A DNA stretch of 45,279 nucleotides from Candidatus Ventrimonas merdavium (GTDB taxonomy: Bacteria > Bacillota > Clostridia > Lachnospirales > Lachnospiraceae): positions 1-45,279 of the forward strand of contig DVLJ01000029.1 in the NCBI GenBank assembly GCA_018715565.1. The letters run 5' to 3'. A model generated the notes under the pieces. The model saw only the letters and a program-made list of their open reading frames with translations, was not told the DNA's origin and did no database searches. Made by a program: the position numbers and the translations under genes. This document shows, in pieces, positions 5,949 through 43,736 of this stretch. Positions within the stretch are counted from its first letter, which is position 1, and every line of letters starts with the position of its first letter.

Positions 5949-6959
5949 CTACCCCTGCTTTCTGGCCCGCAGCTCCTTGGTCAGAGCCGGGACGATCTCA
6001 AACAGATCCCCTACGATGCCGTAGTCTGCCACCTCGAAGATGGGAGCGGTCTCATCCTGGTTGATGGCGATGATGGTATCGGATTCGCTCATCCCGGCCA
6101 CGTGCTGCACCGCCCCGGAAATGCCGCAGGCAATGTAGATCTTCGGGGACACGGTAGAACCGGTCTGTCCCACCTGCTTGGTCTGGGGAAGCCAGCCGGC
6201 GTCCACAGCCGCTCGGGAGCAGCCTACGGTCCCGCCCAGCTCGTCCGCCAGTTCCTTTAAAATGCCGAAATTCTCAGCGTTCTTCATGCCCCGTCCGCCG
6301 GAGACGATCACCTGGGCCTCGTCCAGCTTGATCTCCCCATCCTCGCAGGCCTTGATAAAATCAATGACCTTGGTGCGGATGGCGTCCGCCGGAGTGGAGA
6401 TATCCTCCCGGATAACGATGGGATGGTTGTCCGGTGAAGGCTCTGGCTTCTTGAACGCGCCGGGGCGGCAGGTGCCCATCTGGGGCCTGGTGTCGGCGCA
6501 GAGGATCTGGGCGTACAGATTTCCGCCAAAAGCGGGGCGCTCCCACACCACATTTCCCGTCTCTTCCTCTACGCTGAGGGCCGTACAGTCGGCAGTGAGC
6601 CCGGTGTGGAGGCTGACCGCCAGCTTGGAGCCTAAGTCCCTGCCATTGACCGTGGCGCCGACAAGGATGGTGTTGGGGCTATATTTTCTACAAAGCTCCA
6701 GAAATACGTGGCCGTAGGCGTCGGCGGAATAGGTTTCATACTCATCGCCCTCTACGGCGTAGACCTTGTCCGCCCCGTACATCCCGGCAGCGGCGATGGC
6801 CGCGTCCACGGATTTCCCGATCACTACGGCGCACAGCTTCTGCTTCAGGCTGTCCGCCAGCCTGCGCCCCTGGCCCAGCAGCTCCAGGCCCACGCTTTTC
6901 GGCTCTCCCTGGAAGCATTCGATAAACACCCATACGTCCTGATATGTATCAAAGTTCAT
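5949..6959 (-). CDS. etfA: Electron transfer flavoprotein alpha subunit (no extra ferredoxin domain)
   Basis: YQDVWVFIEC N-terminus; VSGGRGMKNAENF...GCSRAAVDAGWLPQTKQVGQTGSTVSPKIYIACGISGAVQHVAGM C-terminal FAD domain. Confidence 0.96.
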   Translation of the reverse strand: MNFDTYQDVWVFIECFQGEPKSVGLELLGQGRRLADSLKQKLCAVVIGKSVDAAIAAAGMYGADKVYAVEGDEYETYSADAYGHVFLELCRKYSPNTILVGATVNGRDLGSKLAVSLHTGLTADCTALSVEEETGNVVWERPAFGGNLYAQILCADTRPQMGTCRPGAFKKPEPSPDNHPIVIREDISTPADAIRTKVIDFIKACEDGEIKLDEAQVIVSGGRGMKNAENFGILKELADELGGTVGCSRAAVDAGWLPQTKQVGQTGSTVSPKIYIACGISGAVQHVAGMSESDTIIAINQDETAPIFEVADYGIVGDLFEIVPALTKELRARKQG

Positions 6960-22727: not shown

Positions 22728-22967
22728 ATGAGAGTTACGATCTGTATTGGAAGCGCGTGTCATTTAAAAGGGTCCAGAGATATCATCCATCAGATGCAGG
22801 AGCTGGTGAAGGAGCACGGGGTAGGAGATAAAGTGGATCTAAACGGCGCGTTCTGCAGCGGCAACTGCGTGAACGGCGTCTGCGTGACCGTAGACGGGGA
22901 GCTGCATTCCCTGTCCCCGGAGAATACAAAGGAGTTTTTTGAGACTGAGATCTTAGGGAGGCTGTGA
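22728..22967 (+). CDS. Thioredoxin-like [2Fe-2S] ferredoxin (NuoE-like)
   Basis: MRVTICIGSACHLKGSRDIIHQMQELVKEHG...NGAFCSGNCVNGVCVTVDG, four-Cys pattern. Confidence 0.88.
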   Translation: MRVTICIGSACHLKGSRDIIHQMQELVKEHGVGDKVDLNGAFCSGNCVNGVCVTVDGELHSLSPENTKEFFETEILGRL

Positions 22968-24703
22968 CCATGGCGATCATTGACTTCAAGGCAACCAAGT
23001 GCCGCCACTGTTATAAATGTGTGCGCAACTGCGAAGTAAAAGCGATCATGGTAAAAGACGGCCGGGCGGAGATCATGCCGGAGAACTGCATCCTCTGCGG
23101 CCGGTGCCTGCAGATCTGTCCCCAGTCGGCGAAGACGCTGGTCAGCGATCTGAACCTGGTGAAGGGGATGCTCCTGCGGGGAGAGCGGGTGGTGGTATCC
23201 ATCGCCCCGGCCTACATGGGCCTGTTAAAGTACCGGACGATCGGCCAGGTGCGGGCTGCCCTGATGGAGCTGGGCTTTGCCGACGTGCGGGAGACCTCCG
23301 AGGGGGCGGCGTTAGTGACTGCGGAATACGCCCGCCTGCTGGAGGAAGGGAAGATGGAGAACATCATCTCCACCTGCTGCCCCAGCGTCAACGACCTGAT
23401 CGAAAAGTATTATCCCAGCTTGACGCCGTACATGGCGCCGGTGGTGTCCCCGATGATCGCCCACGGCATGCTGATCAAGCAGCAGATGGGCCAGGACGTG
23501 AAGGTGGTCTTTTTAGGGCCGTGCATCGCCAAGAAGCAGGAGGGCCAGGACGCCCGCCACGCAGGCTACATCGACGCGGTGTTAAATTTTAACGAGGTGA
23601 ACAGCTGGCTCCAGGAGAAGGAGATCGTGATCGAGGAATGCGAGGATCTGCCCTTTACCGCTATGAACCCGCGGGTGAACCGGCTCTATCCCGTATCCAG
23701 CGGCGTGGTCAGCTCCGTCCTGGCGACGGAGAAGCAGGTGGATCATTACCGGAAGTTCTACGTCCACGGGGAGAAGCACTGCATCGAGCTGTGCGAGAGC
23801 CTGGCCCGGGGCGAGTTCAAGGGCTGCTTCATCGAGATGAACATGTGCTACGGCGGCTGCATCAAGGGACCGACCGTGTCCGACGATACGGCTTCCCGCT
23901 TTAAAGTAAAGTTAGATATGGAGGAGGCCATCCCCCAGGATCCGGTGCCCGAGGAGGAGACCGCTCCGGCGCTGGAGGCCATTTCCCTGCACAAGGCATT
24001 TTTCGACCGGTCCCCCAGGGATCCGATGCCGACCAACGAGCAGATCCGGGAGATCCTGGCCATGACCGGCAAGATGCGTCCGGAGGACGAGTTAAACTGC
24101 GGCGCCTGCGGCTATCCCACCTGCCGGGAGAAGGCGATCGCCGTATTCCAGAAAAAGGCGGAGCTCAATATGTGCATCCCGTTCATGCACGGGAAGGCCG
24201 AGTCCCTGGCAAACCTGGTGATGGATACGTCCCCCAATGTGGTGCTGATCGTAGACGAGAATATGAAGATCATGGAGTATTCGGCTGTGGGCGAGAAGTA
24301 TTTCGGCAAGACCCGGGCCGAGGCGCTGCAGATGTATCTCTACGAGTTCATCGATCCGTCGGATTTCCAGTGGGTGTTCGATACCCACCAGAACATCCAC
24401 GGCAAGAAGGTCAGCTATCCGGACCTGAAGCTGGATACGCTGCAGAATATCGTATACATAGAGAAGGAGAACGTGGTCCTTGCCACCTTCATCGATATCA
24501 CCCGGGAGGAGGAGCAGGCGCGTCTGGATTATGAGAAGAAGCTGGACACCATCGACCTGGCTCAGCGGGTCATCCACAAGCAGATGATGGTAGCGCAGGA
24601 GATCGCCGGCCTGCTGGGCGAGACCACGGCGGAGACCAAGACCACCCTGACGAAGCTCTGCCAGACCCTGTTGGAGGACGGCAGCGATAACGGAGGGATG
24701 TAA
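22964..24703 (+). CDS. [FeFe] hydrogenase-like protein with 2x[4Fe-4S], H-cluster domain, Fe-S domain and PAS domain (sensory, group C-like)
   Basis: CRHCYKCVRNC, CILCGRCLQIC; L1 STCCPSV, L2 GPCIAKKQE, L3 EMNMCYGGCIKGP; CGACGYPTCREKA; PAS SPNVVLIVDENMKIMEYSAVGEKYFGKTRAEAL. Confidence 0.92.
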   Translation: MTMAIIDFKATKCRHCYKCVRNCEVKAIMVKDGRAEIMPENCILCGRCLQICPQSAKTLVSDLNLVKGMLLRGERVVVSIAPAYMGLLKYRTIGQVRAALMELGFADVRETSEGAALVTAEYARLLEEGKMENIISTCCPSVNDLIEKYYPSLTPYMAPVVSPMIAHGMLIKQQMGQDVKVVFLGPCIAKKQEGQDARHAGYIDAVLNFNEVNSWLQEKEIVIEECEDLPFTAMNPRVNRLYPVSSGVVSSVLATEKQVDHYRKFYVHGEKHCIELCESLARGEFKGCFIEMNMCYGGCIKGPTVSDDTASRFKVKLDMEEAIPQDPVPEEETAPALEAISLHKAFFDRSPRDPMPTNEQIREILAMTGKMRPEDELNCGACGYPTCREKAIAVFQKKAELNMCIPFMHGKAESLANLVMDTSPNVVLIVDENMKIMEYSAVGEKYFGKTRAEALQMYLYEFIDPSDFQWVFDTHQNIHGKKVSYPDLKLDTLQNIVYIEKENVVLATFIDITREEEQARLDYEKKLDTIDLAQRVIHKQMMVAQEIAGLLGETTAETKTTLTKLCQTLLEDGSDNGGM

Positions 24704-24704
24704 G

Positions 24705-25886
24705 ATGGAGATTACCGTAGACGTTGCTTACAAAAGCCTGAATAAATTCTCCGAGATCCTGTGCGGCGATAAGGTGGAGATGCTCCAGACGGAGGATTCC
24801 AACATCCTGATCCTGGCCGACGGAATGGGGAGCGGGGTCAAGGCCAACATCCTGGCCACCCTCACCTCCAAGATCCTGGGCACCATGTTTTTAAACGGCG
24901 CTACTCTGGAGGAATGCGTGGAGACCATTGTCCAGACCCTGCCCATCTGCCAGGTGCGGAAGGTGGCCTACGCCACGTTCAGTATCCTGCAGGTATTCCA
25001 CAACGGGGACGCCTATCTGGTAGAATTTGACAATCCCAGCTGCATCTTCATCCGGGGCGGGCGGCTGATGCCGATCCCCAAGAACATCCGGGAGGTAGAG
25101 GGAAAGAAGATCAATGAATTCCGGTTTAAGGTCCAGAAGGGGGACGCCCTGATCCTGATGAGCGACGGCACAGTCCACGCCGGCGTGGGCCAGCTGCTGA
25201 ATTTCGGCTGGCTGTGGGAGGATATCGCGGCCTATGCGGTGAAGCAGTATGCCCTGACCGTGTCAGCCATGCGGCTGGCGTCGGCCATCTGCCAGGCCTG
25301 CGACGAGCTGTACCAGTACCGGCCGGGAGACGATACTACCGTAGCCTGTATGCGGATCATCAATGCCAAGCCGGTCCACCTGATGACCGGTCCGGCTCAG
25401 GATATGTCCCGGGACGAGGAGATGGTGGCGGCCTTTATGGGCGGCGACGAGTCCACGAAGCGGATCGTCTGCGGCGGCACCAGCGCCACGATCGTGTCCC
25501 GCGTGCTCAAGCGGCCGTTGGACGTCTCCATGGACTATGTGGATCCGGATATCCCGCCGATCGCCTACATGCAGGGCATCGATCTGGTGACCGAGGGCGT
25601 GCTCACCCTGAACCGGGTCGTTCAGCTTTTGCGGCGGTACGCCAAGAAAGAAGCGGTTTCCGAGGAATTCTTCCTGGAGCTGGACAAGACCAACGGCGCC
25701 TCCATGGTAGCCAAGATGCTGATCGAGGACTGTACTGAGCTCCATCTTTACGTGGGGAAAGCGATCAACAGCGCCTACCAGAACCCGGGCCTGCCCTTTG
25801 ACTTGGGCATCCGGCAGAACCTGGTGGAGCAGTTAAAGCAGGTGACCGAGGCCCTGGGCAAGCGGGTGACCGTGACCTACTATTAA
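24705..25886 (+). CDS. SpoIIE-type PP2C serine phosphatase
   Basis: ILILADGMGSGVKANILATLTSKIL; GDALILMSDGTVHAG; GDDTTVACMRI. Confidence 0.92.
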   Translation: MEITVDVAYKSLNKFSEILCGDKVEMLQTEDSNILILADGMGSGVKANILATLTSKILGTMFLNGATLEECVETIVQTLPICQVRKVAYATFSILQVFHNGDAYLVEFDNPSCIFIRGGRLMPIPKNIREVEGKKINEFRFKVQKGDALILMSDGTVHAGVGQLLNFGWLWEDIAAYAVKQYALTVSAMRLASAICQACDELYQYRPGDDTTVACMRIINAKPVHLMTGPAQDMSRDEEMVAAFMGGDESTKRIVCGGTSATIVSRVLKRPLDVSMDYVDPDIPPIAYMQGIDLVTEGVLTLNRVVQLLRRYAKKEAVSEEFFLELDKTNGASMVAKMLIEDCTELHLYVGKAINSAYQNPGLPFDLGIRQNLVEQLKQVTEALGKRVTVTYY

Positions 25887-25962
25887 GATTCGATAAGAAA
25901 ATGGAAATCAAGGGAACGCGTTCCCGCCATCCGGGAGCGCAAGATGAGGAGGAAAAGAAACG

Positions 25963-27417
25963 ATGGTAACAAATGACGCGACCATATTACGAGTGAAACA
26001 TGATGTGCTTTACGAGGTAGCAAAGCGGGCTTGGGAAGGGACCCTGGAGCAGACGCGGGATGAGATCGCCTATCAGATCATCCCGGGACCGCAGGCCCAG
26101 TTCCGCTGCTGTATCTATAAGGAGCGGGAGATCATCCGCCAGAGAGTGCGCCTGGCAGAGGGCCTCTGCCCCACCAGCGGCAAGGATACCCGCAACGTAG
26201 TCCAGGTGATCGGAGCGGCCTGCGAGGAGTGTCCCATCGCTTCCTACACCGTGACCGACAACTGCCGGAAATGTATGGGCAAGGCGTGCCAGAACTCCTG
26301 TAAGTTCGGCGCCATCACCATGGGAGAGAACCGGGCCTACATCGACCCGAACAAATGTAAAGAGTGCGGCATGTGCGCCAACGCCTGCCCGTACAACGCG
26401 ATCGCCCATTTAGAGCGGCCCTGTAAGAAGGTCTGCCCGGTGGACGCGATCACCTATGACGAGTACGGCCTCTGCGTGATCGACGAGGACAAGTGCATCC
26501 AGTGCGGCGCCTGCATCCACAGCTGCCCGTTCGGCGCCATCGGCACGAAGACCTTTATGGTAGACGTGATCCGGATGATCCAGGCCGGCAAAAAGGTAGT
26601 AGCGATGGTAGCGCCCGCTACGGAAGGTCAGTTCGGCCCGGAGATCACCATGGCCAGCTGGCGGACCGCCTTAAAGAAGGTGGGCTTTGCCGATATGGTC
26701 GAGGTCGGCTTAGGCGGCGACTTGACTGCTGCGGCTGAGGCTGCCGAGTGGGCGGAGGCTTACAGGGAAGGCAAGAAGATGACTACCTCCTGCTGCCCGG
26801 CCTTTGTGAACATGATCAAGCAGCACTTCCCCCAGCTCCTGGACAACATGTCCACCACCGTATCGCCCATGTGCGGCGTTTCCCGGATGTTAAAGGAGCA
26901 GGATCCGGAGACCATCACCGTGTTCATCGGGCCGTGCATTGCGAAAAAGAGCGAGACTTTGGATCTGAACATCCAGGGCAATGCGGATTACGCCATGACC
27001 TTCGGCGAGATCCGGGCCATGATGCGGGCGAAGGGCGTGGAGCTGGAGCCGGAGGAGAACACCTATCAGGACAGCTCCGTATTCGGAAAGCGCTTCGGCA
27101 ACTCCGGCGGCGTGACCGCGGCGGTATTGGAGTGCATGAAGGAGACCAACGAGGACATCAACCCCACCGTCATGAAGTGCAACGGCGCTGCCGAGTGTAA
27201 GAAGGCCCTGCTGCTTCTGAAGGTAGGTAAGCTGCCGGCAGACTTCATCGAAGGCATGGCCTGCGTAGGCGGCTGCGTAGGCGGCCCCAGCAAGCACAAG
27301 ACTGAGCAGGAGGCCAAGAAGGCCCGCGACCTGCTGATCAGCCAGGCCGACGGCAGAGAGGTCCATGCCAACTTAAAAGAAAAAGGACTGGAAAACCTGG
27401 CGATGCACCGCCACTAA
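25963..27417 (+). CDS. [FeFe] hydrogenase, monomeric group B-like
   Basis: Multiple Cys clusters (CRKCMGKACQNSC, CKECGMCANAC, CIQCGACIHSC); L1 TSCCPAF, L2 GPCIAKKSE, L3 ACVGGCVGGP. Confidence 0.93.
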   Translation: MVTNDATILRVKHDVLYEVAKRAWEGTLEQTRDEIAYQIIPGPQAQFRCCIYKEREIIRQRVRLAEGLCPTSGKDTRNVVQVIGAACEECPIASYTVTDNCRKCMGKACQNSCKFGAITMGENRAYIDPNKCKECGMCANACPYNAIAHLERPCKKVCPVDAITYDEYGLCVIDEDKCIQCGACIHSCPFGAIGTKTFMVDVIRMIQAGKKVVAMVAPATEGQFGPEITMASWRTALKKVGFADMVEVGLGGDLTAAAEAAEWAEAYREGKKMTTSCCPAFVNMIKQHFPQLLDNMSTTVSPMCGVSRMLKEQDPETITVFIGPCIAKKSETLDLNIQGNADYAMTFGEIRAMMRAKGVELEPEENTYQDSSVFGKRFGNSGGVTAAVLECMKETNEDINPTVMKCNGAAECKKALLLLKVGKLPADFIEGMACVGGCVGGPSKHKTEQEAKKARDLLISQADGREVHANLKEKGLENLAMHRH

Positions 27418-27496
27418 GCGCGGGGGATGCAGACGCGGCAGCCTGCACAGCTGCCCAGGCGGTCCGGATCGACGGTCCCAATAGAAGGATTTCAGG

Positions 27497-27541
27497 AAGC
27501 CCTGGGCGAGCGGGATGAATGCTCGGCCAGGGCTTTTTCGT
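27497..27541 (+). terminator. Rho-independent terminator after the group B-like hydrogenase
   Basis: AGCCCTGG-gCGAGC...GCTCGgCCAGGGCTTTTTC long GC-rich stem with U-tract. Confidence 0.8.
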
Positions 27542-27621
27542 ACCTTTTTGGACACTGGGACATAGTATGGAGTGAGGGGGAAAAGCCCCCGAAGTTTAAT
27601 CGATCATTGGAGGTTACAACT

Positions 27622-28491
27622 ATGGGCATTATCAGTTCCAGAAAATATACGGATGTTTCCCGCATCGCCTGCGACGGCACCATGAAGGTGACGCTGGCTC
27701 TGACCGCAGAGCCGGAGCGGTGCTGCGATCATGAGGAGACCGGGTACGGCGCGTCTTGCTGTTACCGTCCGGGAGCCACAGATATCGTGATCAACGAAGT
27801 GCTGAACACCGATTTTGAGATCGTCAGCATCGGTACCCCGACCAAGGGCACGGTCATGAAGGTCAACGACCGGACCCTGCAGTGGAAGATCGCCCAATTA
27901 GGCACATCCAGCATCGAGGAGGCGTCATTGGAGTTCACAGTACGCCATGTGGGCCAGACCGAGGGCCTGCGCCAGGTGAACCAGTCCGTCACCTACTCCG
28001 ACCGGGAAGGCCATCGGGTAACGTTCCCGGATCCCTACGTGACCGTGGAGTGCGATACGGACGAGGTAGTAGAAGCGTGTCCGACGCCGGTGGACCTGGA
28101 AGTGACCGGCTGTCAGGATGCGGTAGAGCTGGATACCGGCGACACTTACCTGGAATCCCAGGGACGGATCGTCCAGCTGGATGTGACCGTAAAGCATGTC
28201 TGCCCCCGCAAACGGGTTGCCTTAGGCGTTGTCCTCACGGAAGTAGACGAGGAAGGCCGGGAATACCAGCGCGGCATGAAAGCCATGACCATCCCCGCCC
28301 ACAACCACGCCACCTGCCGGGATGTGGAAGTAAAAGGGATCAAATTTGTGCTTCCCGAGGATGGGAGCGTACCCTGCAATTGTGAAGACGGAATGTGCCG
28401 GCGCCACAGCCTGCGCGCCCGCTTGATCGCCCACAACATCGACAACGATTTCCAGTGCTACCAGTCCAGCACGGAAATGACGGTTCTGTAA
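27622..28491 (+). CDS. Conserved hypothetical Cys-rich protein with DUF11-like beta repeats
   Basis: Start ATG 27622; TDIVINEVLNTDFEIVSIGTPTKGTVMKVNDRTLQWKIAQL...LEFTVRH resembles DUF11-like repeats; CCDHEETGYGASCC and CNCEDGMC clusters. Confidence 0.6.
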   Translation: MGIISSRKYTDVSRIACDGTMKVTLALTAEPERCCDHEETGYGASCCYRPGATDIVINEVLNTDFEIVSIGTPTKGTVMKVNDRTLQWKIAQLGTSSIEEASLEFTVRHVGQTEGLRQVNQSVTYSDREGHRVTFPDPYVTVECDTDEVVEACPTPVDLEVTGCQDAVELDTGDTYLESQGRIVQLDVTVKHVCPRKRVALGVVLTEVDEEGREYQRGMKAMTIPAHNHATCRDVEVKGIKFVLPEDGSVPCNCEDGMCRRHSLRARLIAHNIDNDFQCYQSSTEMTVL

Positions 28492-28670: not shown

Positions 28671-30419
28671 TTAGATCTCGTTGATCTTTCTCTTGATATA
28701 GCTGGTATGCAGCAGGTGATGAGCCTTCTCGCTTCCCGGCTCGCCCAGGTAGGTGGCGTACAGCTCCTTGATGGCCGGGTTCTCGTGGGACTTCCGGATC
28801 GGATTGCCCTGATCGGAATCGTAGAGCACCTGGGCCCGCAGAGCGCGGATATCCACGGTGTTGCGCACATAGCCGGGCTGCTGGGGCTGGCCGCCGCCGT
28901 TGATGCAGCCGCCGGGGCATCCCATGATCTCGATGAAGTGGTAATCCGCTTCGCCGGACTGTACCTTCTTAAGCAGGGTTCTGGCGTTGCCCAGGCCGGA
29001 GGCTACGGCAACCTTCACATCCAGGCCGGCTACCGGGTAGGTGGCCTCCTTGATGCCTTCCATGCCGCGGACTTCGGTGAAATCTAAGCTGGCCAGCTCT
29101 TCGCCAGTCAAAGTCTCCACTGCGGTACGCAGAGCTGCTTCCATCACGCCGCCGGTGGCGCCGAAGATCACGGCCGCGCCGGTGCCCAGTCCTAACGGAG
29201 CGTCAAAGCCCTCGTCCGGCAGATTCCGGAACTTGAGTCCTACCTTGCGGATCATCCGGGCCAGCTCTCTGGTGGTCAGGGAGTAGTCCACATCCGGCAC
29301 GCCGTTGGCTGCCTGATCCGGCCGCTGCACCTCGAACTTCTTAGCGGTACAGGGCATGATGGATACGGATACGATATCCTCCGGCTTCAGTCCTTCCTTC
29401 TCCGCGTAGTAGGATTTGGCGATGGCGCCGAACATCTGCTGGGGAGACTTGCAGGAGGACAGGTTCTCGGTCATATCCGGGAAATAGTGCTCACAGTATT
29501 TGATCCAGCCCGGGGAGCAGGAGGTGATCAGAGGCAGCTTGCCGCCGTTCTGTACCCGGTCCAGGAACTCGTGGGCTTCTTCCATAATGGTTAAGTCCGC
29601 ACTGAAGTTGGTGTCAAATACCTTGTCAAAGCCGATCCGCCGCAGGGCAGCCGCCATCTTGCCCTCGGTATTGGTGCCGATGGGATAGCCGAATTCCTCG
29701 CCTAATGCGGCGCGGACTGCGGGAGCGGTCTGAACGATCACATGCTTGGACGGATCCGCGATGGCCGCCAGCACCTCGTCGATCTGGGATTTTTCCTGTA
29801 ATGCGCCGGTGGGGCAGACTGCGATACACTGGCCGCAGGATACGCAGCTGGTCTCCCCTAAGCCCATCTCAAAGGCAGAGCCGATGAAGGTAGCAAAGCC
29901 CCGCTCGTTGGCGCCGATCACGCCGATGCCCTGTACCTTTTCGCAGACTGCGCTGCAGCGGCGGCACAGGATGCACTTGCTGTTGTCGCGGATCATGTGG
30001 ACCGCGCTGTCGTCGATGCAGGACGGGGTCTTGTCGCCGTCGTAATAGCCTTCATCCTCCACACCCAGCTCCTTCGCCAGCTGCTGCAGCTCACAGTTGC
30101 CGCTGCGCACGCAGGACAGACAGCTGCGGTTGTGGTTGGAGAGCAGAAGCTGCAGGGTCTTCTTCCGGGACTCCAGGACCTTCGGGGTGTTGGTAAATAC
30201 CTCCATGCCCTCGTTCACCGGGTACACGCAGGCTACCACCAGGCTTCTGGCGCCCTTGACCTCCACCACGCACATCCGGCAGGCGCCGATCTCATTGATA
30301 TCCTTCAGATAGCAGAGGGTCGGGATCTCGATATGAGCCAGCCGCGCCGCCTCCAGAATGGTGGAGCCTTTTGGAGCGCTTACTTCGATACCATTAATTT
30401 TCAGTGTAATATTCTCCAT
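28671..30419 (-). CDS. hndD: Group A NADH-dependent/electron-bifurcating [FeFe] hydrogenase catalytic subunit
   Basis: NuoG-like N-terminus (GACRMCVVEVKGARSLVVACVYP), L1 TSCSPGW, L2 MPCTAKKFE, L3 MGCPGGCINGGGQ; C-terminal small-subunit region. Confidence 0.95.
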   Translation of the reverse strand: MENITLKINGIEVSAPKGSTILEAARLAHIEIPTLCYLKDINEIGACRMCVVEVKGARSLVVACVYPVNEGMEVFTNTPKVLESRKKTLQLLLSNHNRSCLSCVRSGNCELQQLAKELGVEDEGYYDGDKTPSCIDDSAVHMIRDNSKCILCRRCSAVCEKVQGIGVIGANERGFATFIGSAFEMGLGETSCVSCGQCIAVCPTGALQEKSQIDEVLAAIADPSKHVIVQTAPAVRAALGEEFGYPIGTNTEGKMAAALRRIGFDKVFDTNFSADLTIMEEAHEFLDRVQNGGKLPLITSCSPGWIKYCEHYFPDMTENLSSCKSPQQMFGAIAKSYYAEKEGLKPEDIVSVSIMPCTAKKFEVQRPDQAANGVPDVDYSLTTRELARMIRKVGLKFRNLPDEGFDAPLGLGTGAAVIFGATGGVMEAALRTAVETLTGEELASLDFTEVRGMEGIKEATYPVAGLDVKVAVASGLGNARTLLKKVQSGEADYHFIEIMGCPGGCINGGGQPQQPGYVRNTVDIRALRAQVLYDSDQGNPIRKSHENPAIKELYATYLGEPGSEKAHHLLHTSYIKRKINEI

Positions 30420-30434
30420 ATCAATTCTCCTCCA

Positions 30435-32222
30435 TTACTGTTTGTAGATCGCGCCGAACTTACATTTCTCCATACAAGCGCCGCACTTGATGCACTTCTC
30501 CTGATCGATGATGTGCGGGTTGCGTACGGAGCCGATGATCGCGTTGTTCGGGCAGGTGCGGGCGCACAGGGTACATCCGCGGCACTTCTCTGCATCGATG
30601 TGATAGGAGAGGAGGGCCTTGCAGACGCCGGCCGGACACCGTTTTTCCTTGATATGGGCTTCGTATTCGTCGCGGAAATAGCGCAGGGTGGACAGCACCG
30701 GGTTGGGTGCGGTCTGGCCCAGTCCGCAGGCGGAGTTTTCTTTTACATAGTAGCAGAGCTCTTCCAGCTTATCCAGGTCTTCCATGGTGGCCTGGCCCTT
30801 GGTGATCTTGGTCAGGATCTCCAGCATCCGCTTGGTGCCGATGCGGCAGGGCGTACATTTGCCGCAGGATTCCTCTACGGTGAACTCCAGGAAAAACTTG
30901 GCGATGTCCACCATACAGTCGGTCTCGTCCATAACAATCAGACCGCCGGAGCCCATCATGGAGCCGATGGAGAGCAGGTTGTCGTAATCGATGGGGATAT
31001 CATAGTGCTCCGCCGGGATACATCCGCCGGAGGGACCGCCGGTCTGGGCAGCCTTGAACTTCTTGCCGTTAGGGATGCCGCCGCCGATCTCCTCGATGAC
31101 CTCCCGCAGGGTGGTGCCCATGGGGATCTCTACCAGACCGGTGTTGTGGATCTTGCCGCCTAAGGCGAACACCTTGGTGCCCTTGGACTTCTCCGTACCC
31201 ATGGAGGCGAACCACTCCGGACCGTTCAGGATGATCTGGGGGATGTTGGCGTAGGTCTCTACGTTGTTCAAAATGGTGGGCTTGCCGAACAGGCCCTTCT
31301 GAGCCGGGAACGGGGGACGGGGGCGGGGCTCGCCGCGGTTGCCCTCGATGGAGGTCATCAGAGCGGTCTCCTCGCCGCACACGAACGCGCCGGCGCCCAG
31401 ACGCAGGTCGATATCAAAGTCAAAGCCAGTGCCGAAGATATCCTTGCCTAACAGCTCCATCTCCCGGGCCTGGGCAATGGCGATCTTCAGGCGCTCTACG
31501 GCGATGGGGTACTCAGCCCGCACGTAGATGTAGCCCTGGTTGGCGCCGATGGCATATCCGGCGATGGCCATGGCCTCCAGCACCGCATGGGGATCGCCCT
31601 CTAAGATGGAACGGTCCATAAACGCGCCGGGGTCGCCCTCGTCGGCGTTGCAGCAGACATACTTCTGGTCCGCCTCGTTCTGCTTCGCTAGCTTCCACTT
31701 TAAGCCGGTGGGGAATCCGCCGCCGCCCCGGCCCCGAAGGCCGGAATCCAGCAGGCACTGGATCACATCGTCGGGCGTCATCTCGGTCAGGACCTTGCCC
31801 AGAGCGGCGTAGCCGCCGGTGCCTATGTACTCCTCGATCACCTCCGGGTTGATGATGCCGCAGTTGCGCAGAGCGATCCGGTGCTGCTTCTTGTAGAAGT
31901 CAGTGTCGATCAGGGCCTTCACGCCGGCGGGGGTCACGGTCTCCTGATACAGCAGGCGGGTGACCACGCGGCCTTTTAACAGATGCTCGTGTACGATCTC
32001 CGGGATATCTTCTACTTTGACCATGGAGTAGAAGCTGGCGTCCGGGTAAACGATCATGATCGGTCCCAGGGCGCAGAGACCGTGGCAGCCGGTCTGCACC
32101 ACGGAGACTTCATTCTCCAGACCGGTTTTCTTAAGCTCCTCCTTCAGAGCTTCCATAATCTGCTGGCTTCCGGAGGAAGTACATCCTGTTCCGCCGCAAA
32201 CCAATACATGTGAACGATACAT
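30435..32222 (-). CDS. hndC: NuoF-like NADH/FMN subunit of the bifurcating hydrogenase
   Basis: GLRGRGGGGFPTGLKWKLA, YVCCNADEGDPGAFMDR, ESCGKCTPCRIGTKRM, C-terminal 2x[4Fe-4S]. Confidence 0.96.
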   Translation of the reverse strand: MYRSHVLVCGGTGCTSSGSQQIMEALKEELKKTGLENEVSVVQTGCHGLCALGPIMIVYPDASFYSMVKVEDIPEIVHEHLLKGRVVTRLLYQETVTPAGVKALIDTDFYKKQHRIALRNCGIINPEVIEEYIGTGGYAALGKVLTEMTPDDVIQCLLDSGLRGRGGGGFPTGLKWKLAKQNEADQKYVCCNADEGDPGAFMDRSILEGDPHAVLEAMAIAGYAIGANQGYIYVRAEYPIAVERLKIAIAQAREMELLGKDIFGTGFDFDIDLRLGAGAFVCGEETALMTSIEGNRGEPRPRPPFPAQKGLFGKPTILNNVETYANIPQIILNGPEWFASMGTEKSKGTKVFALGGKIHNTGLVEIPMGTTLREVIEEIGGGIPNGKKFKAAQTGGPSGGCIPAEHYDIPIDYDNLLSIGSMMGSGGLIVMDETDCMVDIAKFFLEFTVEESCGKCTPCRIGTKRMLEILTKITKGQATMEDLDKLEELCYYVKENSACGLGQTAPNPVLSTLRYFRDEYEAHIKEKRCPAGVCKALLSYHIDAEKCRGCTLCARTCPNNAIIGSVRNPHIIDQEKCIKCGACMEKCKFGAIYKQ

Positions 32223-32234
32223 TTGCGTTCCTCC

Positions 32235-32612
32235 TTACTTAATGTCTGCTGAAGCCAGGGTGTATTCTTCCACGATGTGGCCGCCGATCAGATGGCGTTC
32301 CACGACTTCCGCAGCTTTTTCTGAGTCCATTTTGATGTAGGTGATCTTGGGTTTGCCGGGCTCCATCACTTCTACGATGGGCTCATACTGGCAGAGACCG
32401 ATGCAGCCGGTCTGGGTCACGGCGACCTTGCCGGTCAGGCCCTTCTCCTGGACCAGACGGGACAGGGTGTTCAGTACGGGACGGGCACCGCTGGCGATCC
32501 CGCAGGTGGCCATACCTACTACGACGCGGGTGTGAGCGTGATCCTCGGCGCGCAGGCCGACCTGGCCCTGCATCTTTTCCCGGATGGCTCTTAATTCTTC
32601 GAGACTTTTCAT
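32235..32612 (-). CDS. hndB: Thioredoxin-like [2Fe-2S] subunit
   Basis: VVVGMATCGIASGARPVLNTL...VTQTGCIGLCQYEPIVEV. Confidence 0.88.
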   Translation of the reverse strand: MKSLEELRAIREKMQGQVGLRAEDHAHTRVVVGMATCGIASGARPVLNTLSRLVQEKGLTGKVAVTQTGCIGLCQYEPIVEVMEPGKPKITYIKMDSEKAAEVVERHLIGGHIVEEYTLASADIK

Positions 32613-32647: not shown

Positions 32648-33205
32648 TCAGTAAACGGCGCCGCCGTCGGTTTCTGATTGGTTTTCTGACAGGTATTCCC
32701 GGATATACTCGGATACCTCCGGCGTGTCAAAGGGCACGTCTCCCAGGATCTCCCGAAATTCCCGGGTATCCAGGGTAAAGGAAGCTCCGTTGTAGCGGTA
32801 GCAGTAGATAAAATCCGTGTCCGGATGGTAAACGATCAGGGAATGGATCGTGCTGGTCATATCCCCCAGGGGCATCCGGTCGATGTGGGACAGGACAAAT
32901 ACTGCAGTGACCACAGTCCCCACGCCTACCTGGGACCGGATGAAAAAGCTCCCGCCGGTGCTCTCTGCCGCGTACTTGAAAAAGGGGACGCCCAGGCCCA
33001 CCTTGCGGGTGGTGCGGCTGGTGTAGAACGGGTCGATGACCTGAGCGACCTGCTCTTCGGTCATGCCGCAGCCGTCGTCCTTGATCACAACGGTGAGAGT
33101 ATCCGCCGCCACATCCGTGTCCACGGTGATCTCCACCAGGGAAGCCTTGGCCCGGGTGGAATTCTCCGCTACATCCAGGATATTCAAAGAGATCTCAGGC
33201 ATCAT
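32648..33205 (-). CDS. HATPase_c (GHKL) protein, histidine-kinase-like, no DHp domain visible
   Basis: ISLNILDVAENSTRAKASLVEI (N box), IKDDGCGM (G1), TRKVGLGVPFFKYAAESTGGSF (G2). Confidence 0.88.
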   Translation of the reverse strand: MMPEISLNILDVAENSTRAKASLVEITVDTDVAADTLTVVIKDDGCGMTEEQVAQVIDPFYTSRTTRKVGLGVPFFKYAAESTGGSFFIRSQVGVGTVVTAVFVLSHIDRMPLGDMTSTIHSLIVYHPDTDFIYCYRYNGASFTLDTREFREILGDVPFDTPEVSEYIREYLSENQSETDGGAVY

Positions 33206-33210
33206 AGGCG

Positions 33211-33705
33211 CTACTGATACTTGGCCAGGATCCCGGGGATGTCATCCGGGACCAGACGTCCGTAGACCTCGTCGTTGATCATCATGACCGGGGCCAGACC
33301 GCAGGCGCCTACGCAGCGGCAGGAATCCAGGGAGAATCTCCCGTCCGGAGTACACTCGCCGTTGGTGATGCCGAGCAGCTCTTCTAATTTACTGAAAATG
33401 GCGCCGGAGCCCTTCACGTAGCAGGCCGTCCCCAGGCATACGGAGATGCGGTACTTGCCCTTGGGCTGCAGGGCGAACTGAGCGTAGAATGTAGAAACGC
33501 CATAGATCTTCTCTAAGGGGATCCCGGTTTCGTCCGAGATCATCGTCTGGACTTCGATAGGCAGATAGCCGTAGATCTCCTGGGCCTGCTGCATGATCGG
33601 CATCAGCGCTCCCTTGGTGTCCTTCAGCTCTGCAATGACCTTCTTCAGAGCAGCTTCCTGCTCTGGTGTCCCTGAAAAGGGAACACTTCCTTTTTTGCAA
33701 GCCAT
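33211..33705 (-). CDS. hndA: NuoE-like [2Fe-2S] subunit
   Basis: GALMPIMQQAQEIYGYLP; VCLGTACYVKGSGAIFSKLEELLG; CRCVGACGLAPVMMINDEVYGRL. Confidence 0.94.
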   Translation of the reverse strand: MACKKGSVPFSGTPEQEAALKKVIAELKDTKGALMPIMQQAQEIYGYLPIEVQTMISDETGIPLEKIYGVSTFYAQFALQPKGKYRISVCLGTACYVKGSGAIFSKLEELLGITNGECTPDGRFSLDSCRCVGACGLAPVMMINDEVYGRLVPDDIPGILAKYQ

Positions 33706-33819
33706 GAATATTCCTCCTCTTATTTGCAGTTGGTCAAATGTATCTAATATTCTAGCACAGGTTGTTCAAAAAATCTACATTAAGTCAAAAATGACCGAAG
33801 GTTTTCTTGGGAAAACCTG

Positions 33820-33848
33820 TTGAACATTCACAAGTTCAATGGTATCCT
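33820..33848 (+). promoter_or_regulatory. Putative promoter of the DRTGG/group D operon with overlapping inverted repeat TTGAAC-N8-GTTCAA
   Basis: TTGAAC-N17-TATCCT; the same -35 begins a 20-bp dyad; preceded by AGGTTTTC-TTGG-GAAAACCT dyad at 33799-33818. Confidence 0.45.
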
Positions 33849-33894
33849 AAAAGAAGAATCTTGTGTGAAATATGAAAAATGGAGGGGACTGTTT

Positions 33895-34242
33895 ATGACT
33901 GCAAGAGACGTACAGAACATATTGGGAGCCAGGGTGCTGACTGGGGAGGAATTCCTGGACCGGGAGGTGCGGAGCGCCTGCGGCTCGGACATGATGAGCG
34001 ACGTGCTGGCCTTTTCCAAGGACCATTCGGTGCTGCTGACCGGCCTGTGCAATCCCCAGGTGATCCGCACCGCGGAGATGCTGGACATTGTCTGCCTGAT
34101 CTTTGTCCGGGGCAAGAAGCCGGACGAGACCCTGATCCAGATGGCCAAGGACCGGGACCTGATCGTGATGGAGACCGGACACCGGATGTTTTCCTCCTGC
34201 GGCATGCTGTATCAGGCCGGACTGGGCGGAGGTGCGATATAA
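33895..34242 (+). CDS. DRTGG-domain protein
   Basis: REVRSACGSDMMSDVLAFSKDHSVLLTGLCNPQVIRTAEMLDIVCLIFVRGKKPDETLIQMAKDRDLIVMETGHRMF: DRTGG-like; start at ATG 33895 after GGAGGGG. Confidence 0.78.
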   Translation: MTARDVQNILGARVLTGEEFLDREVRSACGSDMMSDVLAFSKDHSVLLTGLCNPQVIRTAEMLDIVCLIFVRGKKPDETLIQMAKDRDLIVMETGHRMFSSCGMLYQAGLGGGAI

Positions 34243-34664
34243 TGGATGCGATCGTATTAAAATACCCGATCTCTGCTGACGATTTTACCCGGGCAGGGGA
34301 AGCCAGCAGCGATGTGAAGAGCAAGCTAAAGCAGATGGGCGTCAGCCCGGAGGCGGTCCGCAAGGTGGCCATCGCCATGTATGAGGGGGAGATCAACATG
34401 GTGATCCACGCCAAGGGCGGGGAGATCACGGTGGAGATCACGCCGGAGAATATCCGCATGATCCTGGCAGATGTGGGTCCCGGCATCCCGGATATCGATC
34501 TGGCGATGAAGGCCGGGTACTCCACGGCTCCGGACGAGGTGCGCAGCCTGGGCTTCGGCGCGGGCATGGGCCTGCCCAATATGAAAAAATACACGGACGA
34601 TATGAAGATCGAGACAGAGCTGGGCGTAGGGACCACCATTACCATGGACGTACACCTGGCCTGA
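34242..34664 (+). CDS. Anti-sigma regulatory factor-like HATPase (RsbW/SpoIIAB-like)
   Basis: VRKVAIAMYEGEINMVIHAKGGEITVEITPENIRMILADVGPGIPDIDLAMKAGYSTA...GFGAGMGLPNMKKYTDDMKIETE; TAATG overlap with the upstream ORF. Confidence 0.88.
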   Translation: MDAIVLKYPISADDFTRAGEASSDVKSKLKQMGVSPEAVRKVAIAMYEGEINMVIHAKGGEITVEITPENIRMILADVGPGIPDIDLAMKAGYSTAPDEVRSLGFGAGMGLPNMKKYTDDMKIETELGVGTTITMDVHLA

Positions 34665-34678
34665 GGAAGCGAGGCAGT

Positions 34679-36082
34679 ATGGACAAATTTTACCATTCCG
34701 TCCGTCTGGAGGCGGATCTGTGCAAGGGGTGCATCAACTGCATCAAGCGGTGCCCCACCCAGGCCATTCGGGTGCGGGGCGGAAAGGCGCAGATCAATCC
34801 CAAGTTCTGCATTGACTGCGGGGAGTGTATCCGCGTCTGCCCCCATCACGCCAAGGTGGCGACCTACGACAAGCTGGAGGTGCTGAAGCAGTACCGCTAC
34901 ACGGTGGCGCTCCCCGCTCCGTCCCTATACAGCCAGTTCAACAACCTGGACGATGTGAACGTCGTGCTGAACGCCCTGCTGCTCATGGGCTTTGACGATG
35001 TGTTCGAGGTCAGCGCGGCGGCGGAGCTGGTGTCGGAGGCCACCCGGGCGTATCTAAGCGCCCACGAGGAGAATTATCCGTTCATCAGCACGGCCTGCCC
35101 GTCGGTGGTGCGGCTGATCCGGGTAAGGTTCCCCAACCTGATCCCTCATCTGCTCCCGCTGAATCCGCCGGTGGAAGTGGCGGCGGTGATGGCGGCGGAG
35201 CGGGCGATGAAAAAGACCGGGCTTCCCAGGGAGGCCATCGGCATCTGTTTCATTTCCCCATGCCCGTCTAAGGTGACCTATTCCAAGGCCCCCCTGGGGA
35301 CGGAGAAAAGCCAGGTGGACCGGGTCCTGGCCATCAAGGACGTGTATCCCAAGCTGCTTTCCCACATGAAGGCGGTGGGACCGGACGCCCAGGACTTGAG
35401 CACCTCCGGGAAGATCGGGGTCAGCTGGGGCCGGAGCGGCGGAGAGGCCGGGGGCCTGTTCACGGAGAATTACCTGGCCGCCGACGGCATCGAGAACGTG
35501 ATCCGGGTGCTGGAGGACCTGGAGGACCAGAAGTTTACCAATTTAAAGTTCGTGGAGCTGAACGCCTGCAACGGCGGCTGCGTCGGCGGCGTGCTGAATG
35601 TGGAGAACCCCTACGTGGCGGAGGTGAAGCTGAAGCGCCTGCGCAAATACATGCCTGTAGCCCGCAGCCATATGGAGAATGAGGAGCAGGCGGAGCAGAT
35701 CGTGCCCTGGACCACCGGGGTGCAGTATGAGCCGGTGTTCAGCCTGGGCGAGAACATGATGGAAAGTTTTGTACGCCTAAACCAGGTGGAGCGGCTGTGC
35801 CGGAAGTTCCCGGGGCTGGACTGCGGCTCCTGCGGAGCGCCTACCTGCAAGGCCCTGGCGGAGGATATCGTGCGGGGGCAGGCCAGTGAGAATGACTGCG
35901 TATATTATCTGCGGGAGAACCTGCACCGGCTGTCGGAGGAGGTATCCGTCCTGGCAGACGATCTCCACGCAGGCGATCACGGAGGCCAGGAGACCCTGCG
36001 TATCTTGAAGGAATACATCCAGCGGATCTCCAGCGAGATGTCGCTGCTGGACAATAAGGACGACGGAGAGAGCGGTGATTAG
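34679..36082 (+). CDS. [FeFe] hydrogenase-like protein, group D-like (sensory candidate), C-terminal Fe-S domain, no PAS
   Basis: CKGCINCIKRC, CIDCGECIRVC; L1 STACPSV, L2 SPCPSKVTY, L3 LNACNGGCVGGV; CGSCGAPTCKALAEDIV. Confidence 0.88.
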   Translation: MDKFYHSVRLEADLCKGCINCIKRCPTQAIRVRGGKAQINPKFCIDCGECIRVCPHHAKVATYDKLEVLKQYRYTVALPAPSLYSQFNNLDDVNVVLNALLLMGFDDVFEVSAAAELVSEATRAYLSAHEENYPFISTACPSVVRLIRVRFPNLIPHLLPLNPPVEVAAVMAAERAMKKTGLPREAIGICFISPCPSKVTYSKAPLGTEKSQVDRVLAIKDVYPKLLSHMKAVGPDAQDLSTSGKIGVSWGRSGGEAGGLFTENYLAADGIENVIRVLEDLEDQKFTNLKFVELNACNGGCVGGVLNVENPYVAEVKLKRLRKYMPVARSHMENEEQAEQIVPWTTGVQYEPVFSLGENMMESFVRLNQVERLCRKFPGLDCGSCGAPTCKALAEDIVRGQASENDCVYYLRENLHRLSEEVSVLADDLHAGDHGGQETLRILKEYIQRISSEMSLLDNKDDGESGD

Positions 36083-36085
36083 AAA

Positions 36086-36197
36086 GAGCCGGAGCGGCAG
36101 GAAGGATCCCGGGCGGCAGGAGCCGCCGGAGCGGCAAAAACAGCCGTAGCCGGAGCGGCAGAAGCAGCTGGAACCGAAGAGGGAGCCGGAGCGGCAG
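36086..36197 (+). repeat. Degenerate repeat of GAGCCGGAGCGGCAG (four copies) between two operon genes
   Basis: Exact 15-mer at 36086-36100 and 36183-36197, 14/15 copy at 36148-36161, core CCGGAGCGGCA at 36126-36136. Confidence 0.85.
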
Positions 36198-36218
36198 AAG
36201 GAAAGGAGCGGATGGAAC

Positions 36219-36554
36219 ATGAAGGTACAGCAGCTGATCGACAGCGGGAGGTTCCGGGTGATCAATGAAGGCGACGGAGGAGAGCGGGAGATCACCACCC
36301 CGTTCTGCTGCGATCTGCTCAGCGTGGCTATGGGCCGGGCGCCCTCTGGCTGCGCCTGGGTGACGGTGATGGGGAATATGAACACGCTGGCCGTGGCGAC
36401 TCTGGCGGACGCGGCCTGCGTTATCATGGCCGAGGGGACGGAGCTGGACGAGATCGCGGTGAAGAAGGCGAAGGACCAGGATATCACTGTGCTGGGCACG
36501 GAGGAGCCGGTGTTTGAGGCGGCTCTGTGGATCTGGCAGGAGATGCATGGTTGA
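36219..36554 (+). CDS. DRTGG-domain protein (second copy)
   Basis: REITTPFCCDLLSVAMGRAPSGCAWVTVMGNMNTLAVATLADAACVIMAEGTELDEIAVKKAKDQDITVLGTEEPVF, alignable by eye with 33895-34242. Confidence 0.75.
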   Translation: MKVQQLIDSGRFRVINEGDGGEREITTPFCCDLLSVAMGRAPSGCAWVTVMGNMNTLAVATLADAACVIMAEGTELDEIAVKKAKDQDITVLGTEEPVFEAALWIWQEMHG

Positions 36555-37263
36555 CCTAAGCTATGATCTGCATATCCATTCCTGCCTTTCCCCATGCGGG
36601 GATGACGATATGACGCCGGGGAATATCGTGGGTATGGCGGCCATCAAGGGGCTGGACGTGATCGCAGTGACGGATCACAACAGCTGCCGGAACTGCCCGG
36701 CGGTGTTAAAGCTGGCGGAGCAGTTCGGAGTGCTGGCGATCCCCGGTATGGAGATCAATACCTCTGAGGAGGTGCACGCGGTCTGCCTGTTCCCCACCTT
36801 GGAAGCGGCGCTGGATTTTGATGCCTATGTATATGAGCGGCTGATGAAATTTCCCAATAAGGAGGAAATCTTCGGGAAGCAGCAGATCTGCAATGAGGAG
36901 GATCTCTGCATTGCCACGGAGCCGTACCTGCTGATCAACAGCGCGGACATTTCCTTTGAGGGACTGTGGGAGCTGGTGGAAGGCTTTGGCGGCGTGATGT
37001 TCCCTGCCCATGTGGAAAAGTCCGCCAACAGCCTGATCGCCAACTTAGGCTTTGTGCCGCCGGACAGCAAGTTCCGCACGGCGGAGCTTAAGGATCTGAA
37101 AAAGCTCCACGGGGTGCGGCAGGCCAATCCTTACCTGAATGACTGCCGGATCATCAGCAACTCCGACGCCCACTACCTGGAGCACATCAACGAGCCGGAG
37201 TTGACCATCCCGGTGCGGGAACGGTCGGTGGAGGCGGTGCTGGCGTATCTGCGGGGTGAGTGA
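36547..37263 (+). CDS. PHP-domain metal-dependent phosphoesterase
   Basis: DLHIHSCLSPCG (HxH), VTDHNSC (DH), PGMEINTSEEVHAV, PAHVEK, SNSDAH; ATG 36547 overlaps the end of the previous ORF. Confidence 0.92.
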   Translation: MVDLSYDLHIHSCLSPCGDDDMTPGNIVGMAAIKGLDVIAVTDHNSCRNCPAVLKLAEQFGVLAIPGMEINTSEEVHAVCLFPTLEAALDFDAYVYERLMKFPNKEEIFGKQQICNEEDLCIATEPYLLINSADISFEGLWELVEGFGGVMFPAHVEKSANSLIANLGFVPPDSKFRTAELKDLKKLHGVRQANPYLNDCRIISNSDAHYLEHINEPELTIPVRERSVEAVLAYLRGE

Positions 37264-43153: not shown

Positions 43154-43432
43154 ATGAACTCTATTCGTCCGGTGTCAGACCTTAGAAATAACTTTGCTGA
43201 AATATCCAGACAGGTCCATGAAACACAAAAGCCGGTCTTTCTTACGAAAAATGGATACGGCGATATGGTCGTAATGAGCATGGAAGCTTATCAGACAATG
43301 CAGTTTGATAGCGAGGTTTACAATAAACTCGCGGAGGCGGAAAAACAGGCAGTTTTAACAGATACGCGATACTCTTCAAAGGACGTTTTAAAAGCATTAA
43401 AAAAAGCGGTTGGAGAACCTGCTCATGTATAA
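43154..43432 (+). CDS. Phd/YefM-family antitoxin
   Basis: MNSIRPVSDLRNNFAEISRQVHETQKPVFLTKNGYGDMVVMSMEAYQ. Confidence 0.92.
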   Translation: MNSIRPVSDLRNNFAEISRQVHETQKPVFLTKNGYGDMVVMSMEAYQTMQFDSEVYNKLAEAEKQAVLTDTRYSSKDVLKALKKAVGEPAHV

Positions 43433-43736
43433 TGTTGGATATCTCCCGTTAGCATTACAGGATATGGTAGAGATTGTTGAATACATCAGCCGCGAATTAT
43501 GCAATCCGGAAGCTGCCAATAGCCTGGCTGATTTATTTATGAAAGAGATCGACAGCCTGAGCATGTTTCCCTATACTCATGAGAGATATGACTCGCCCTA
43601 TCCCCTGAGACATGAATACAGGAAATTAGTGGTAAATAATTATCTTGTATTTTATTGGGTCGACGAGCCCAAAAAACAGGTAACTGTCAGCAGGGTCCTT
43701 TTTGGTAAGCGAGATTATACATCTGTGCTGAAATAG
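43425..43736 (+). CDS. RelE/ParE-family toxin
   Basis: MYNVGYLPLALQDMVEIVEYISRELCNPEAANSLADLFMKEIDSLSMFP...YRKLVVNNYLVFYWVDE...VSRVLFGKRDY; overlaps the antitoxin. Confidence 0.92.
   Translation: MYNVGYLPLALQDMVEIVEYISRELCNPEAANSLADLFMKEIDSLSMFPYTHERYDSPYPLRHEYRKLVVNNYLVFYWVDEPKKQVTVSRVLFGKRDYTSVLK

Follow-up and report, generated by a model that had tools for sequence, protein, structure and literature searches.

Genes at the Locus

The stretch analyzed here (the window) comprises positions 1 to 45,279 of contig DVLJ01000029.1 from Candidatus Ventrimonas merdavium (assembly GCA_018715565.1). At 33895–37263 it carries five + strand genes in the order DRTGG1-HATPase1-HydD-DRTGG2-PHP, and a check of the open reading frames (ORFs) placed these divergently from a − strand run, hydC-HATPase2-2Fe2S-hydB-hydA (Table 1). 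An initial annotation of this DNA had described the five + strand ORFs, and their positions bear this out, as they do the TAATG at 34240–34244 that joins the DRTGG1 stop to the HATPase1 start and the PHP start codon inside the preceding ORF (PHP starts at 36547, DRTGG2 ends at 36554). Its description of the genes as tightly packed holds for these two overlaps, but not for HydD and DRTGG2, which are separated by a 136-bp gap.

Table 1. Coordinates of the sensor-like module, the divergent hydrogenase operon and the two intergenic regions (window positions).
Feature	Positions	Strand	Evidence or content
HydA, group A6 NADH-dependent [FeFe] hydrogenase	28671..30419	-	NCBIfam NF040763 921.6 bits (cut-off 765)
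HydB, NADH/FMN subunit	30435..32222	-	profile scan
2Fe-2S thioredoxin-like protein	32235..32612	-	PF01257 just below cut-off
HATPase2, histidine-kinase-like CA domain plus ~75-residue C-terminal extension	32648..33205	-	domain scan
HydC, NuoE-like [2Fe-2S] thioredoxin fold	33211..33705	-	PF01257 171 bits
Divergent promoter region	33706..33894		holds TGTTGAACATTCACAA at 33818-33833
DRTGG1 protein, 115 aa	33895..34242	+	DRTGG PF07085 28 bits (cut-off 25.2)
HATPase1, SpoIIAB-like GHKL ATPase/kinase, 140 aa	34242..34664	+	HATPase_c 41.5 bits; HATPase_c_2
HydD, group D (M2e) [FeFe]-hydrogenase-like putative sensor, 467 aa	34679..36082	+	Fe_hyd_lg_C 94.1 bits; FeS PF04060 48.1; two 4Fe-4S
HydD-DRTGG2 gap, 136 bp	36083..36218		five imperfect ~20-nt GC-rich repeats (AGCCGGAGCGGCAG), spanning 36081-36197
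DRTGG2 protein, 111 aa	36219..36554	+	no Pfam match; profile alignment to DRTGG1
PHP-fold metal-dependent phosphoesterase-like protein, 238 aa	36547..37263	+	PF02811 34.3 bits (cut-off 26.4)

Conserved Residues of the Six Proteins

Residue conservation was counted over about 150 sequences for DRTGG1, 152 for HATPase1, 148 for HydD, 154 for DRTGG2, 163 for PHP and 136 for HATPase2. Judged from its sequence, HydD has the features by which Land et al. define the group D, or M2e, [FeFe] hydrogenases (PMC8163306). Its 16 cluster Cys residues were retained in at least 147 of the 148 sequences; they include two N-terminal [4Fe-4S] motifs (C15/18/21/25 and C44/47/50/54) and the H-cluster ligands C140, C195, C297 and C301, and a C-terminal Cx2Cx4Cx16C at residues 382–407 was exact in 146. 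A139 replaces C299 of CpI (Ala in 123 sequences, Ser in 18), S193 stands at the M353 position (Ser in 113, Thr in 32), and the domain scan detected no PAS domain. TamHydS of Thermoanaerobacter mathranii, a group D (M2e) protein, likewise has two N-terminal 4Fe-4S motifs, an H-cluster domain, the Cx2Cx4Cx16C motif, no PAS domain, a replaced group A proton-path Cys, a hydroxyl residue at the M353 position and a HATPase neighbor (PMC8163306).

The N-box residues E48 and N52 of HATPase1, together with D77, G79, G81 and G104–G110 (both G boxes), were invariant. Its best profile match in the PDB was SpoIIAB (1til), with E48/N52 aligned to the Glu/Asn pair of that protein, yet it fell far under the SpoIIAB model cut-off (TIGR01925, 59.4 of the 135 bits required) and that of RsbW (26.2 of 145 bits). 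STAS and sigma-factor genes were found neither among the scanned window genes nor as a constant neighbor in other loci. The suggestion of an anti-sigma or kinase element thus survives in part: the ATP site and catalytic Glu are intact, while the missed cut-offs and the lack of a nearby sigma or STAS gene speak against an anti-sigma role. HATPase2, which the initial annotation overlooked, keeps D11/N15, the G boxes and D109/P112/G114 invariant, and histidine kinases were its best profile relatives. We found in it only the CA domain and the C-terminal extension, with no DHp domain carrying a phospho-acceptor His. MutL and topoisomerase VI were among its fold matches; the extension had no convincing fold relative, its long topoisomerase VI and MutL alignments having high root-mean-square deviations.

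That the two DRTGG proteins can be aligned with each other was confirmed by comparing their profiles (hhalign, 99.8% probability, E 5e-30), and DRTGG2 also gave weak matches to the structures 3l2b and 2ioj. D32, S35, T49 and G109 were invariant or nearly so in DRTGG1, and D32, S35, T49, N55 and A58 were invariant in DRTGG2, so Asp32, Ser35 and Thr49 are common to both families. In PHP, H9, H11, C17, H44, E69, H77, H155, D207 and H209 were near-invariant, which upholds the HxH, DH, E, H and DxH residues reported earlier and leaves the predicted metal site intact. No invariant residue takes the place of the Asp in the common HxHxxxSDG motif; C17, close by, is invariant. The structure model of PHP (predicted local distance difference test score 95) had EndoQ and RNase AM as its nearest folds, and other near PHP folds, including the 2yb1 AMP complex, also act on nucleic acids or nucleotides.

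Conservation of the Module Across Genomes

Distribution was assessed within the phylum, using a family-level sample (120 same-family genomes and the window's own) and a phylum-level sample of 300 genomes; the sets of loci partly overlap, since some contigs were fetched by two routes. At the family level, PHP orthologs occupied 28 places with E-values of 1e-64 or better, and the next PHP proteins followed at 1e-10. All 27 same-family neighborhoods that were fetched keep DRTGG1-HATPase1-HydD-DRTGG2-PHP, one of them ending early at a contig end, and 80 named loci, nearly all of Lachnospiraceae type, show the same order, apart from a few exceptions, wherever the contig extends far enough. The order was likewise found in 140 of 166 PHP loci (some contigs counted twice), and most of the others were contig ends or variants. 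In other families the module typically forms one colinear run, DRTGG1-HATPase1-HydD-DRTGG2-PHP-hydC-HATPase2-2Fe2S-hydB-hydA.

PHP was present in 116 of the 300 genomes of the phylum sample, nearly always as one ortholog per genome, and HydD was present in a nearly identical set. With the window's own genome excluded, the two occurred together in 111 genomes, adjacent to each other in 106 of these, whereas PHP occurred alone in four and HydD alone in eight (Fisher p 2e-66, a value that ignores relatedness, for a pattern extending across dozens of families). The five-gene grouping is more than chance, and the proposal that these genes form one functional unit is supported by gene order, by co-occurrence and by natural fusions.

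Fusions and Variants of the Module

DRTGG1 is fused to HATPase1 in five loci and PHP to HATPase2 in two (L191 and L197 in our numbering), while HATPase1-HydD, HydD-DRTGG2 and HATPase2-2Fe2S fusions were each seen in one locus. Because fusions join these parts, we divide the module into two probable arms, an input arm of DRTGG1, HATPase1, HydD and probably DRTGG2, and an output arm of PHP, HATPase2 and the 2Fe-2S protein. One family has the module in two pieces, HATPase1-HydD and DRTGG1-DRTGG2-PHP-HATPase2, at separate places.

A CBS pair (partial in one case) is fused to HATPase1 in five loci, and such a CBS-HATPase1 protein was found in all three assessable genomes that have PHP but lack HydD. 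The input may therefore be exchangeable, with a CBS pair taking the role of HydD, which we offer as a suggestion only, given the small number of genomes and the coexistence of the fusion with HydD in L178 and L187. Minimal forms, DRTGG2-hydC-HATPase2-2Fe2S-hydB-hydA, occur in L241 and L243. Homologs of rnfC and rnfD follow the module in L180 and L187, replacing the hydrogenase genes or lying near them, and rseC or rex stands beside some modules, with rex recurring near the module in other genomes.

Two further loci deserve mention in their own right. At 6658–7700 of L244, from a closed genome (G156), HydD and PHP look decayed to fragments, unlike DRTGG1, DRTGG2 and the hyd operon, which appear intact. 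On the − strand of L238 (3934–5847), a group C-like hydrogenase fused to a chemotaxis-receptor-like signaling domain lies beside a HATPase1-HydD pair.

A Candidate H2/Redox-Sensing Switch

We propose, tentatively and with somewhat less than an even chance of being right, that the five genes and HATPase2 form an H2- or redox-sensing switch for the NADH/ferredoxin-linked hydrogenase HydABC, and in some lineages for Rnf. The H-cluster and FeS chain of HydD, the likely input, would respond to H2 or to reduced ferredoxin, which would agree with the earlier idea that the H-cluster protein gates the module, and the C-terminal [4Fe-4S] domain of HydD would pass the change on to HATPase1. The partner that HATPase1 would then modify at the expense of ATP is most likely a protein Ser or Thr. 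In the second arm, next to the 2Fe-2S subunit, PHP would act as a metallo-phosphoesterase that reverses or reads this change, and HATPase2 with DRTGG2 would adjust HydABC as the presumed output. We favor control of HydABC enzyme activity over control of transcription, because no DNA-binding regulator is constant and because reduced modules retain DRTGG2 and HATPase2 alongside hydCBA.

Several observations weigh against this switch. Neither HydE, HydF nor HydG scored above cut-off in the window's own assembly, which is 97% complete in 241 contigs. These three proteins are required for building the H-cluster, and if their absence is real, the cluster could not form. An assembly gap is the likely explanation; of the congeners searched, about half have HydG. 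Otherwise full modules without PHP exist (L231–L233), and L240 and L246 have neither HydD nor PHP, so neither protein is obligatory. Modules also lie away from HydABC in L184, L209, L221, L222 and L224, and the modeled fold of PHP appears closer to PHP proteins that act on nucleic acids or nucleotides than to protein phosphatases.

The last point leads to the alternative that stands up best, which we nevertheless consider unlikely, namely that a phosphorylated nucleotide, made or destroyed by PHP, is bound by DRTGG (or by CBS in the variants) and sets the HATPases, with HydD as a second input. In its favor are the PHP fold, with EndoQ, RNase AM and the 2yb1 AMP complex as relatives, and the variants in which CBS pairs, which bind adenine nucleotides in CBS-DRTGG pyrophosphatase (CBS-PPase), are joined to HATPase1. 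No nucleotide is known to us as a ligand of DRTGG, PHP is fused to HATPase2 rather than to DRTGG, and some modules lack PHP. The view of DRTGG as a nucleotide sensor, put forward in the initial annotation, also finds no support in CBS-PPase itself, the one well-studied case, in which the CBS domains hold the adenine nucleotides and DRTGG instead adds to the dimer contact (PMC10742508).

The switch can also be cast as a new kind of partner switching, in which an H-cluster-gated, SpoIIAB-like kinase would phosphorylate an invariant Ser/Thr of DRTGG proteins in the place of STAS, PHP would reverse this in the place of the serine phosphatase PP2C, DRTGG2/HATPase2 would set how active the NADH/ferredoxin hydrogenase or the Rnf complex is, and CBS pairs could replace the hydrogen sensor. 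In this full detail the scheme is decidedly unlikely to be correct. As in SpoIIAB-SpoIIAA-SpoIIE and RsbW-RsbV-RsbU, HATPase1 has a SpoIIAB-like fold and the Glu/Asn box; unlike those systems, the module has no STAS protein or sigma factor, and DRTGG and PHP would occupy the STAS and PP2C places.

Tight linkage to hydCBA would also be expected if the module served the maturation, assembly or repair of HydABC, with chaperone-like HATPases and with PHP and DRTGG in cofactor or protein quality control. GHKL folds can be ATP-driven clamps, as in the MutL and topoisomerase VI matches of HATPase2, but modules occur without HydABC and beside Rnf, and HydD retains a full set of H-cluster ligands, as would a sensor or an enzyme; we regard such a role as quite improbable. 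We give still less credence to transcriptional control, whether by HATPase1 as an anti-sigma kinase or by HATPase2 as a histidine kinase. It draws on the best profile relatives of the two proteins (SpoIIAB and RsbW for HATPase1), and it is opposed by the cut-offs that HATPase1 missed, by the lack of a constant STAS, sigma or response-regulator neighbor and by the missing phospho-acceptor His of HATPase2. Finally, that PHP is a housekeeping phosphoesterase merely traveling with the operon would fit its dispensability in some modules, but is very improbable for a protein separated by a sharp gap from the remaining PHP proteins (E of 1e-64 or lower versus 1e-10 or higher in the family sample), nearly always single in its genome, usually next to HydD and in places fused to HATPase2.

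Relation to Known Systems

Group D proteins have already been proposed as sensors of bifurcating HydABC (PMC8163306, PMC3561251), and PMC3561251 and PMC3608648 place a group D gene, together with a kinase, upstream of trimeric bifurcating HydABC. That locus is the same neighborhood as ours, the spacing of the Clostridium thermocellum locus tags Cthe_0335 to Cthe_0340-0342 fitting the present order; the passages found there treat the hydrogenase and kinase only, and DRTGG and PHP are additional here. Compared with TamHydS (PMC8163306), the present analysis adds the full DRTGG/PHP/HATPase2 module and the fusions. The link between group D protein, kinase and HydABC is therefore known already, whereas the searchable (non-subscription) literature yielded no account of the rest of the circuit, whether the DRTGG pair, PHP, HATPase2, the fusions, the variant with CBS or the one linked to Rnf.

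The group C HydS-PAS proteins that accompany a SpoIIE-type phosphatase (hfsBC of Thermoanaerobacterium; hydS of Ruminococcus albus, PMC11837493) are also a case of a putative H2 sensor and Ser phosphatase tied to another hydrogenase, but they use PAS and PP2C where the present module has DRTGG, HATPase and PHP. With the CBS-DRTGG family II pyrophosphatase the module has the DRTGG domain in common, as well as CBS pairs in its variants; it differs in having no DHH or DHHA2 domains and in carrying DRTGG alone or fused to HATPase or HydD. A PHP-domain protein, Tsac_1856, is among putative Rex targets (PMC5886521) and was not linked to the present locus.

Accounts of how anaerobes sense H2 through group C and D [FeFe] hydrogenases have lacked the partner to which the H-cluster passes its signal. 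The natural HydD-HATPase fusion and the fusions of HATPase to DRTGG or CBS name a candidate for it, so that experiments on a handful of purified proteins could address this gap. The module is widely distributed within the phylum, and the complexes to which it is tied determine where NADH and ferredoxin electrons go in bacteria of the gut, the rumen and biofuel production.

Intergenic Regions and Neighboring Genes

The repeats in the HydD-DRTGG2 gap share a 15-nt core, GCCGGAGCGGCAGAA, which occurs twice in the gap and nowhere else in the window's genome assembly, and they are absent from the close relative L067, where the HydD-DRTGG2 spacing is about 26 bp. In the divergent promoter region, TGTTGAACATTCACAA is partially conserved among close relatives and might, on weak grounds, be an operator. 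A sigma-70 promoter scan found no promoter. We do not claim control of the divergent promoter by Rex, because all six matches of the Rex operator search in the window lie elsewhere.

On the + strand at 22964–27417, the window also encodes a group C HydS-PAS [FeFe] hydrogenase, a SpoIIE-type phosphatase and a further, group B-like [FeFe] hydrogenase. This putative second H2-sensing cluster resembles hfsBCD of Thermoanaerobacterium, and HydS/phosphatase genes recur close to the module in several relatives. The window thus holds four [FeFe]-hydrogenase-like genes, despite the lack of HydE, HydF and HydG above cut-off in the assembly. A + strand ORF of 354 aa (27427–28491) with no Pfam match separates the group B-like hydrogenase gene from hydA, and a ParE-like toxin ORF (PF05016) is found at 43410–43736 on the + strand.

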